Source: a virus | Virus record (IMG/VR): IMGVR_UViG_3300009181_000043 | Span: 1 to 64,000 of that record | DNA: 64,000 bases | Reading direction: 5' to 3' (one strand) | Shown: positions 757-63,277 of the stretch, one piece after another | Layout: each line of letters starts with the position of its first letter | Numbering within the stretch: position 1 is the first letter of the stretch | Notes under the pieces: model-generated | What the model was told of the DNA's origin: nothing | Database searches by the model: none | What the model saw: only the letters and a program-made list of their open reading frames with translations | Program-made: the position numbers and the translations under genes

Positions 757-1144
757 GGGCGTGTACTGGTTTCGATTTGAGTATACGTTCATTGTATGCA
801 CGCAGAAGATGATGGTTGGCTTCTCTAAAGACCCATTAAAACATTAACCGCTGAGGAAAATGTAGTGAGCTACGACTTCTCTTACGAGAACGTCGGCGCA
901 GTTGCAGCCTAATATTGGTTGCCCGTTTGTTCGGTGAGAGTTCGGTAATCGAAACAAATGTCATTTACGGACTAGAACTGAAAACAGTGATTTGTGGTTT
1001 CAGTTGACATCTTACAAATCTTAAGAACAACATTTTTTGACAATATTAGATTGTTGTTCCTAACAAATTCAAAATTGTAAAAGCGTGTAGAGTGCGATGA
1101 TACAATAGTCAAAGACGAGGGTTCAACTCCCTCCACGTCCACCA
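757..1144 (+). ncRNA. ssrA: tmRNA (trans-translation RNA)
   Basis: A complete one-piece tmRNA of about 388 nt. The 5' strand GGGCGTG (757-763) pairs with CACGTCC (1134-1140), and position 3 forms the G-U pair used for alanylation. It is followed by the conserved CTGGTTTCGA segment. The T arm GAGGG-TTCAACT-CCCTC lies at 1117-1133 and ACCA at 1141-1144 is encoded. The tag reading frame starts at GCT 850 after TTAACC and ends at TAA 910-912, giving AEENVVSYDFSYENVGAVAA. The Val-Ala-Ala end is typical of degradation tags. It would rescue stalled ribosomes with SmpB, which must come from the host because no smpB is visible here. Confidence 0.93.
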
Positions 1145-1211: not shown

Positions 1212-1670
1212 ATGAGCGATTTAACCACCGAAAAAAATGATAGATGTGTGCGGATTGCCAAGCGCAAATACAAAAAATGGCCTAGCGCATATGCAAGTGG
1301 TGCTGTAGTCAAATGTCGTCAAGGCAAGATTTGGAAAGGCGTCAGCGAAGAAGTTGTGGATGAAGGTGGATTCAACAAAGAAAAGTCGCAAGGACTGCAT
1401 GGTTGGTTTGCTCGACGTGGTGGTAAAGGTGGCAAAGGTTGGGTAGATTGTAATACATGTAGAAAAGATCCCAAGACTGGCCAAAAGAAATGCAAAGCGT
1501 GTGGTCGCCAAGCAGGTGAGAAGCGAGCCAAATATCCAGCGTGTCGTCCAACACCAAGTCAATGTACCAAAACCGGAGTCAAGAATAAAAAGGGTCCAAG
1601 CACAGCTTCTTGGAAACAAAAAAACGAAACCCTTGATTACGCAACAATAGCCAAAGAGTTGTATTTGTAA
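1212..1670 (+). CDS. DUF5872-like cysteine-rich basic protein
   Basis: A 152-residue, lysine- and cysteine-rich protein. The N-terminal third contains the segment WPSAYASGAVVKCRQGKIWK, which I recognise from phage proteins of the DUF5872 type. It is followed by a glycine-rich basic linker and a cluster of cysteines (CNTC, CKAC, PAC, SQC) that may bind zinc. Function is unknown, and a nucleic-acid or virion-DNA-associated role would fit the charge. An upstream start at 1179 lies inside the tmRNA terminator hairpin and is rejected. ATG 1212 sits 3 nt after the octamer TATTTATA. Confidence 0.75.
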   Translation: MSDLTTEKNDRCVRIAKRKYKKWPSAYASGAVVKCRQGKIWKGVSEEVVDEGGFNKEKSQGLHGWFARRGGKGGKGWVDCNTCRKDPKTGQKKCKACGRQAGEKRAKYPACRPTPSQCTKTGVKNKKGPSTASWKQKNETLDYATIAKELYL

Positions 1671-1675
1671 TTTGT

Positions 1676-2089
1676 ATGAGAATCTACAGTTTGCTTTATG
1701 AGACCAGCATATATGACTATTTGATTTGGGAACCCCAAGGCAAACTTAAGCATATTGCGGACACACTTGACACATTCAATAAATTTACATCCAATGATTT
1801 GTTCAGAGGCATGTCCAAAAAAGAATTGGGTGTATTGCAACGCCATGGTAAAGTGACTTCCAAGGGCAAGGGCAACACCCGCAACATCTATGGGAGTTAT
1901 CTTGCGAGTGATTTCAAATTGAGTGCGAGATTTGCTTTGGTAAACTACAGAGACAAAGGTGAAGGTGTTGTGATCGTAGTGGATAAAAATAAGTTACCAG
2001 ACTTAAAAACTGTTGATGATGGTAACTTTGTTACTACTTATATTCCGATAGAAGCAGTCAAACAAATTATAGATTTATCAAAGTTATGA
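1676..2089 (+). CDS. ADP-ribosyltransferase-like small protein
   Basis: A 137-residue protein. Its centre has LFRGMSKKEL, then KVTSKGKG...GSYLASDFKLSARFA, then a hydrophobic strand GEGVVIVVDKNKL. This order (an RG strand, an S-containing turn, a helix with alternating Ala, then a beta strand) resembles small ADP-ribosyltransferase-like domains found in phages, which use Arg, Ser and Glu motifs. A catalytic EXE or QXE motif is not obvious, so activity is uncertain. Its last codon overlaps the next ATG (ATGA), indicating translational coupling. The fold call is inference from pattern only. Confidence 0.6.
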   Translation: MRIYSLLYETSIYDYLIWEPQGKLKHIADTLDTFNKFTSNDLFRGMSKKELGVLQRHGKVTSKGKGNTRNIYGSYLASDFKLSARFALVNYRDKGEGVVIVVDKNKLPDLKTVDDGNFVTTYIPIEAVKQIIDLSKL

Positions 2090-3422: not shown

Positions 3423-3815
3423 ATGGCCAAGCCAAAAACGTTTCACCAAACATTGGAGCTACCATCGGCGTTTAGCGTGATGGATGATTATATCGGCAAA
3501 CATAAGTCAAAACTGACAGAGCAAGTTGTTGCGTCGATTGAGTTTGCGATCAATAATGATTTACCAACTGTAGAAGTGTTTAATTTTCAAGGCTCGGAAT
3601 TTATGGTGGTATTAAGTTCATCCACGTTCAAAGAGAACTTGGACAACATCATGGCCTACTATATCAGTACGGAACAATATGAGTTCTGTGCCCGTGTTAC
3701 TAACGTTCAAAAACTACTCAACAATGAAAAAACAAATGAGCAAAAGAAAAGACACAAGCCCAAAAATTCACCAAAATCCAAAAATAAAGGATACGATTCA
3801 GATCAAGACTGTTGA
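3423..3815 (+). CDS. Hypothetical protein upstream of phoH
   Basis: A 130-residue protein with a folded first 100 residues (MDDYIGKHKSKL..., then a strand VEVFNFQGSEFMVVL) and a basic, Lys/Asn/Pro-rich tail. The tail is encoded in a stretch that also encodes the N-terminus of phoH in another frame. The overlap is about 90 nt (3724-3815), long for a phage operon, so either phoH starts later or the tail is dispensable. Function unknown. Confidence 0.6.
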   Translation: MAKPKTFHQTLELPSAFSVMDDYIGKHKSKLTEQVVASIEFAINNDLPTVEVFNFQGSEFMVVLSSSTFKENLDNIMAYYISTEQYEFCARVTNVQKLLNNEKTNEQKKRHKPKNSPKSKNKGYDSDQDC

Positions 3816-4446
3816 GTTGACTGAAAAGCAAAAACAACTTATAGAAATTTTAAGAGACAAAAATACAAAATTGGTATTCATATCTGGCCCAGCTGGTACT
3901 TCAAAAACGTATACGTCTATTTTGGCTGGTTTACATTTGATCAATGACAAACGTGTCAGTGAGATGGTATATATTCGATCTGCTGTAGAAAGCAGTGACA
4001 GTAAGCTAGGATTTCTACCGGGTGAAATGGATGACAAAATGTTGCCATACATACAACCTTTGATTGACAAGTTGGAAGAGTTGTTGCCAAGATGCGACAT
4101 TGAAAAGTTAAAAATGGAAGAGCGTATTCATGGTGCGCCTGTCAATTTTTTGCGTGGTCTGAATTGGAATGCTAAGTGCATCGTTGCGGATGAAGCACAA
4201 AATATGACCAGAAAAGAGTTGATCACACTCATTACTCGGGTTGGAGAATTCAGTAAATTATTCGTGTGTGGTGATCCAGATCAAAGCGATATCAACGGAA
4301 AAAGTGGGTTAACCGGCATTGTTAATCTGTTTGATGATGATGAAAGTCGAGCCAATGGAATTCATATCTTTAAGTTTGACGAAGAAGATGTAGTTCGTAG
4401 TGGTTTGGTAAAATTCATACTAAAAAAACTCAAAAAGCTAACTTGA
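3724..4446 (+). CDS. phoH: PhoH-like P-loop ATPase
   Basis: A 240-residue PhoH-family protein. Walker A GPAGTSKT lies near residues 55-62, Walker B is IVADEAQN, and further family motifs are YIRSAVE, LGFLPG and VCGDPDQSD. PhoH proteins are ATPases found in many marine and freshwater phages, with a proposed role in RNA metabolism or phosphate stress. The actual phage role is unsettled. ATG 3724 is chosen because it gives a short basic leader before the domain, while a longer frame open from 3679 adds unrelated residues. The alternative downstream start AAACAAATG at 3736 is also possible. Confidence 0.9.
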   Translation: MKKQMSKRKDTSPKIHQNPKIKDTIQIKTVELTEKQKQLIEILRDKNTKLVFISGPAGTSKTYTSILAGLHLINDKRVSEMVYIRSAVESSDSKLGFLPGEMDDKMLPYIQPLIDKLEELLPRCDIEKLKMEERIHGAPVNFLRGLNWNAKCIVADEAQNMTRKELITLITRVGEFSKLFVCGDPDQSDINGKSGLTGIVNLFDDDESRANGIHIFKFDEEDVVRSGLVKFILKKLKKLT

Positions 4447-62500: not shown

Positions 62501-63277
62501 TTAGAAGAACGACGTTGAAGTTTCAACATTGTGTTCTGTAACAACTTCCTTGAATATGGTTCCTTTGATGTATGGCAACACTTTGTGTTTCAATGATTTC
62601 ACAAGCTTTTTATTTTCAATCTTGCCACAAATGAACTTAACGTAACGATGTTTACCACTTTCACGTTTGCGCCAAAAGGTTTTGCCTATACGTTCTTTTA
62701 GTTTATCGACGTTGTGTGTTTTCCATCGGCTATACACACTGCGACTGTGAATCCAGTTATAGTTTGGTGGGCCTTCGAGACTAACGCTGTAATTGGGCAT
62801 CAATGCTATATCAACGTAATTGTCACCTTGATACATAAACCCAGTGGCTTGGTAAATTGTACCACGATGTCCTTCTTCGCTATCGGCATACGTCAGAATA
62901 CATTTGACTTTTGGATAATCCTTGTTGAGCAGCCGAAAGCTTTCGGCCAATGCATAACTTTCTATGTTTTTACCATACCCGTCAGCAATCCAAAGTCTGG
63001 TCAATTCAAACACATGGTCATTGGTCAATAATTCACTGATGCTTTTACTTGCACAGCGACCCACTGCGTTACCATATACCAATACACCTATGAGTTTGTT
63101 GTTGAATCCACCAAAGAATGTGCTTTCTATATAGTCTTTATAATATACACCATACGCCACTGTGCAACTTGTCCACTTGTGGCTATAATGATTTTTTTCA
63201 ATCATTGTACGTGCGACCGATTTGTTTATCGGTTGTAGATGTATCAACGAAGTATCACAATATTGTGCATCACTCAT
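62501..63277 (-). CDS. Mom-like DNA modification protein
   Basis: A 258-residue protein of the Mom/GNAT-like family. IEKNHYSHKWTSCTVAYGVY, LIGVLVYGNAVGRCASK, FELTRLWIADGYGKNIESYALAESFRLL, KCILTYADSEEGHRGTIYQATGFMYQG and a basic C-terminal region match phage Mu Mom and relatives in order. In Mu this enzyme modifies adenine, protecting DNA from many restriction enzymes. It is transcribed convergent to the capsid gene from its own sigma70-like promoter (63284-63311), ending 6 nt before the start codon. Confidence 0.82.
   Translation of the reverse strand: MSDAQYCDTSLIHLQPINKSVARTMIEKNHYSHKWTSCTVAYGVYYKDYIESTFFGGFNNKLIGVLVYGNAVGRCASKSISELLTNDHVFELTRLWIADGYGKNIESYALAESFRLLNKDYPKVKCILTYADSEEGHRGTIYQATGFMYQGDNYVDIALMPNYSVSLEGPPNYNWIHSRSVYSRWKTHNVDKLKERIGKTFWRKRESGKHRYVKFICGKIENKKLVKSLKHKVLPYIKGTIFKEVVTEHNVETSTSFF

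Follow-up and report, generated by a model that had tools for sequence, protein, structure and literature searches.

The DNA at positions 757-1144 of the window (the whole stretch of 64,000 nucleotides that was analysed) is a complete one-piece tmRNA with an intact alanine-type acceptor stem, tmRNA being the RNA that rescues stuck ribosomes and marks incomplete proteins for destruction. Phage tmRNAs are a known kind, of which it represents a new family. We consider it highly likely (a probability of about 0.84) that this is a functional phage ssrA gene, which would carry out trans-translation in the infected cell with the SmpB, AlaRS and EF-Tu of the host. This reading is drawn from the full-length match to the tmRNA model RF00023, the compensatory changes in the helices, the invariance of the frame-setting bases, the selection on the tag frame, the terminator and the inheritance of the gene within a phage clade.

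Anatomy of the tmRNA gene and its transcript

The only RNA gene called by ARAGORN in the whole window was the tmRNA at 757-1144 (+ strand), with the tag AEENVVSYDFSYENVGAVAA ended by a stop codon. The Rfam model RF00023 matched it over model positions 1-374 of 374, with 122.8 bits and an E value of 1.7e-47, the gathering score of the model being 47 bits. The original prediction had read a complete phage tmRNA with a 20-residue tag from the letters alone and had pointed to a covariance model and ARAGORN as the way to check it; both detect the gene, and ARAGORN gives the same coordinates and the identical tag frame, from GCT 850 to TAA 912 (gene positions 94-156). The features of the locus, in order of position, are the following:

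360-387, + strand: sigma70-like promoter, TTGACA-16-TAGACT with TG before the second hexamer, the likely transcript start (consensus scan)
394-621, + strand: small gene between the promoter and the odd tRNA (list of open reading frames); similar upstream sequence in the relatives L003, L082, L084 and L004
661-734, + strand: 'odd tRNA' cloverleaf with a CAU anticodon, a 4-nt D loop, a T loop without TTC and a CCA end, 22 bases before the tmRNA and conserved in relatives
757-1144, + strand: complete one-piece tmRNA gene (ssrA) with encoded CCA (ARAGORN; RF00023; compensatory changes preserve the helices in 39 relatives)
757-763, + strand: 5' half of the acceptor stem, with the G3.U70 alanine identity pair; its partner is 1134-1140 (read from the sequence)
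845-849, + strand: frame-setting bases ahead of the resume codon, T845 and A846 being the counterparts of E. coli U85 and A86 (read from the sequence)
850-912, + strand: tag reading frame of 20 codons plus TAA, AEENVVSYDFSYENVGAVAA (ARAGORN; purifying selection)
1117-1144, + strand: T arm (1117-1133), 3' half of the acceptor stem (1134-1140), A73 and CCA (read from the sequence)
1150-1185, + strand: intrinsic terminator of the tmRNA transcript, a 14-pair stem followed by TTTATTTT
3679-4446, + strand: PhoH-like protein, the syntenic neighbour used to find relatives (PF02562, E 3e-51)

The predicted acceptor stem with G3-U70, T arm and encoded CCA can be read directly in the sequence: 757-763 and 1134-1140 form seven standard pairs including G3.U70, and the T arm is a regular GAGGG-TTCAACT-CCCTC. 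The tag frame has its resume codon (GCT 850), its stop codon and an Ala-Ala end. In E. coli tmRNA, U85 and A86 set the tag frame (PMC2481249); their equivalents T845 and A846 are invariant in 39 relatives. We aligned these 39 distinct tmRNAs on the Rfam helices and found two-sided changes at 48 pairs, compared to 35.7 in shuffles, with a covariation score of 0.362 versus 0.179 in shuffles, a signal that collapses once the partners are slid. Pairing is complete (100%) in the acceptor and T stems, which also carry compensatory changes; all five T-stem pairs have changed on both sides, and G3.U70 is invariant. The Rfam-model helices in the pseudoknot regions (one helix tested per knot) mostly covary, PK2 weakly; helix 6, in pseudoknot 2, is 68% paired and pairs poorly in many of the 39 sequences. 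A permuted tmRNA was considered and rejected: the matches to RF04321 reach 21-32 bits, below the 47-bit cut-off, and they originate from the odd cloverleaf lying just ahead of a normal tmRNA.

The gene had also been predicted to possess its own terminator, and it has a strong one, the hairpin at 1150-1185 (-21.5 kcal/mol, z -9.08, with none of 200 shuffles equally stable) with its T-rich tail. The number of promoter-like sites in the consensus scan is not above chance; L003, L004, L011, L082 and L084 have the site of 360-387, or a near-identical one, at the corresponding position.

The tmRNA and its tag in a phage clade

The IMG/VR virus record containing the window has 99,122 bases and is classed as linear. 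By its gene content it is an uncultured T4-like phage, since it encodes the Gp23 major capsid protein, a prohead protease (Peptidase_S77), PhoH, a Mom-family protein, a portal and a baseplate wedge. Its closest Gp23 relatives among isolated phages, those of Microcystis phage Mel-JY01 and of the Flavobacterium phages 'immuto', are about 50% identical. The phage structural genes in the record and the presence of the tmRNA at the same place in many phage contigs indicate that the gene is phage-encoded and not host contamination. The Mom-family DNA modification protein (62501-63277, - strand; PF25680, E 3.6e-43) adjoins the major capsid gene. We found no SmpB in the 99 kb record or in 20 further records, mostly relatives, and no tyrosine integrase in the record or in 16 relatives; the absence of both from the record is provisional because the record may be a fragment.

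Relatives were gathered from IMG/VR via PhoH, a downstream DUF5872-like protein and the tag pattern. They yielded 49 distinct tmRNAs called by ARAGORN, whose tags are related in nearly all cases. Of 80 related loci, at least 57 have the tmRNA upstream of PhoH, at a distance of 1.4-6.1 kb, most of the others ending at contig edges; it is also present in 14 of the 16 related records of at least 77 kb, and many relatives have a tRNA array ahead of it. Phage tmRNAs had been described as uncommon in the original prediction, which holds for phages at large, with 402 of 18,146 phage genomes (about 2%) carrying one (PMC9004378), but not inside this clade, where the tmRNA is the rule. Distances between tmRNAs track those of PhoH (Mantel r 0.732, none of 5000 permutations as high), and the gene thus seems to have descended with the phages and not to have been captured repeatedly from hosts. 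Among isolated phages (50,697 records, searched by BLAST), only short matches to the tmRNA were found, mostly to its tRNA ends, and none to the tag.

The tags of the clade follow the consensus AE(E/D)NV(V/I)SY(D/N)F(S/T)(Y/S)xxVxA(L/V/I)AA; they are 20 residues long here and up to 30 elsewhere, and a close relative, L003, ends in AVVA in place of A[LVI]AA. In the tag frame, 24 distinct tags of 20 codons give a pS of 0.419, a pN of 0.144 and a dN/dS of 0.26, compared to dN/dS values of 1.05 and 1.04 in the other two frames of the region, and column shuffles of the tags gave a mean of 0.78, with 1 of 200 as low. Because the low dN/dS is confined to the tag frame, the tag peptide itself, beyond the RNA, is under purifying selection. 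Lysine- and serine-rich expansions of the tag (ATKKSKVISYNFTSKKSSKTSKKSGLALAA, ANKKSKVVSYDFTSREAVALAA) occur in the relatives L076 (1956-2364) and L081 (3692-4075).

It had been proposed that the tag could be used to infer the host lineage from which it came. In viral contigs, 87 stretches fit the degenerate tag pattern TAAYNGCNRANRANAAYRTNRTNWSNTWYRAYTTY, and a scan of 84,980 species genomes of bacteria and archaea gave no match; the scan looked for this exact pattern, which a differently spelled host tag would escape. Judged by this distribution, the tag identifies no host lineage, since its pattern occurs in viral contigs and in no prokaryote genome searched, and this part of the original prediction is not supported; the tag has diversified within the phage clade, in step with the phages. 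Our claim is limited to the statement that no searched prokaryote genome has the tag in this form, and we do not claim that it is foreign to the host.

The CAU cloverleaf ahead of the tmRNA

The odd tRNA noticed beside the tmRNA proved to be a conserved CAU cloverleaf, missed by ARAGORN at its default settings. The tRNA model RF00005 gave no match for 661-734 at E 10 in the window, nor for its homologues in L271, L276, L082 and L012 at E 1. The cloverleaf is conserved in L004, L012, L082, L084 and L268-L278, and a single pattern retrieved 19 homologous IMG/VR stretches, some adjoining a tmRNA and others in the tRNA arrays of other phages. The only bacterial match to this pattern (L279) lies inside a gene and was dismissed as chance.

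Across 12 distinct sequences, the cloverleaf has four arms, a 7-nt anticodon loop and a CCA end. Pairing holds in 95.7% of cells; two-sided changes occur at 13 pairs, compared to 6.1 in shuffles, and the covariation score is 0.468 versus 0.191. Only the first base of the anticodon loop, (C/T)TCATAA, varies; the D loop reads C(A/G)GC, and the weak opening pair of the acceptor stem (1:72) is U-A, G.U or a mismatch. A covariance model built for the cloverleaf gives 89.7 bits for 661-734, a score high by construction as this sequence is included in the model. A phage tRNA-Met(CAU) in L280, with a similar D arm and a normal T loop, scores 50 bits with the model, which suggests that the odd cloverleaf is a strongly diverged Met-type tRNA. 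The unusual T loop, GGCGGCA, recurs in a tRNA-Glu-like gene with the anticodon TTC (L274, 12739-12814, - strand), and the T-loop change is therefore not limited to one tRNA. Within a phage tRNA array of L276, the stretch 1594-1795 (- strand) also matches archaeal RNase P RNA weakly, with 23.9 bits (E 0.0032), far short of the gathering score of 84. Our literature search found no paper on the odd CAU cloverleaf, which shows that conserved phage tRNA-like genes can escape tRNA finders.

Proposed role of the phage tmRNA and relation to known systems

The charging, delivery, tagging and degradation steps are most likely those of tmRNAs in general, from which we take them. The mature tmRNA would be made by host RNase P together with the CCA end and would be charged by host AlaRS. 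Host SmpB and EF-Tu.GTP would bring it to ribosomes stalled on broken mRNAs, which are expected to abound in lytic infection; translation would then move to the tag frame at GCT 850, freeing the ribosome, and the tagged product, with its V/L/I-Ala-Ala end, would go to ClpXP-type proteases of the host. The lack of SmpB in the record and in the 20 others points to reliance on host SmpB, and compatibility of the tmRNA with host SmpB and AlaRS is assumed. The benefit to the phage would probably be a steady supply of free ribosomes, independent of host ssrA expression. The earlier suggestion that a phage tmRNA may redirect tagging in the infected cell is plausible.

Two other explanations are compatible with a functional ssrA gene of this kind and differ from it in purpose. 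One, which differs in why the phage would need its own copy, is that it replaces a host tmRNA destroyed or avoided in infection, through RNA-cleaving host defences or phage-induced RNA decay. We hold this to be a tentative possibility: the tmRNA accompanies a tRNA array in relatives, and phage tRNAs have been proposed to evade tRNA-targeting defences of the host (PMC10264068). The other, which differs in the purpose of the tag, is that the gene serves mainly to re-address rescued proteins, the phage-specific tag (core NVVSYDFSY) altering the protease or adaptor used or slowing decay. Selection on the tag core, the length of the tags and the absence of the tag pattern from every prokaryote genome searched would fit, but the genome scan used exact patterns that a host tag spelled differently would escape, and nearly all tags end in hydrophobic-Ala-Ala, an end typical of ClpXP signals, which points to ordinary degradation; re-addressing as the main purpose is therefore rather unlikely. 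Neither replacement of host tmRNA nor protein re-addressing excludes a role in ribosome supply. A broader proposal, which we would regard as improbable, sees a phage cassette for translation takeover in the transcript running from about 388 to 1185: a tmRNA re-addressing rescued proteins by its phage-evolved tag would be joined to a non-canonical CAU cloverleaf, which would act as a special Met/initiator-type tRNA or serve as a lure for anticodon nucleases of the host.

Two further explanations fare much worse. An RNA consisting of the tRNA-like domain only can strongly inhibit tmRNA (PMC4131195), and such TLD-only RNAs, among them that of mycobacteriophage DS6A, have been proposed to be decoys, titrating SmpB away and thereby inhibiting trans-translation of the host. 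For the present gene this role is very unlikely, since a decoy could do without the complete mRNA-like domain, the frame-setting bases and the selected tag frame that the gene has kept. The gene could also be a relic or passenger picked up from a host, for instance by imprecise excision of a prophage at ssrA, which is a known prophage attachment site and of which fragments occur in prophages (PMC9004378). Such an origin is contradicted by the completeness of the gene, the selection on its tag, the compensated helices, its inheritance with the clade and the lack of an integrase in 17 records, and we found no bacterial copy bearing the tag; we give it almost no credence.

As far as the surveyed literature shows, phage tmRNAs have been catalogued but rarely analysed as evolving families. 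The dozens of related copies described here show a tag peptide under selection in phages, with no prokaryote counterpart detected, and whether and why phages use a degradation tag of their own is directly testable by mass spectrometry, with one short core to look for. The gene shares with bacterial one-piece ssrA (RF00023) the full architecture, G3.U70, the T arm, CCA, the U85/A86 equivalents, helices of the model in the pseudoknot regions and the Ala-Ala tag end, and differs from it in being phage-encoded and in its 20-residue tag, whose core NV(V/I)SY(D/N)F is in no prokaryote genome searched. Phage tmRNAs are known from mycobacteriophages and phage G (PMC4131195) and from huge phages (PMC7162821). 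Those of the mycobacteriophages (Bxz1, Wildcat and others) and of Bacillus phage G are likewise complete ssrA genes on phages, but belong to other hosts and other kinds of phage, and the 50,697 phage records gave only short matches to the present RNA, mostly at tRNA ends, and none to its tag. Huge phages also supply ribosome-rescue parts, in their case both tmRNA and SmpB, whereas no SmpB was found in the present clade. One of them, LR756508, has a Gp23 51% identical to that of the present phage and a tmRNA match without such a tag by inspection. This tmRNA (L248; LR756508.1, about 92434-92880) scores 72 bits, and the tag that ARAGORN assigns to it, GRRKPLSW, appears to be wrong; RF00023 matches the same record again at 414804-414915. 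Methylophilales phage Melnitz and the pelagimyophages (PMC9004378), which are likewise aquatic T4-like phages without integrase, carry a two-piece tmRNA. The Melnitz tmRNA is permuted, of alphaproteobacterial kinship and linked to a glutamine riboswitch, whereas the present tmRNA, with no riboswitch found beside it, is one-piece.
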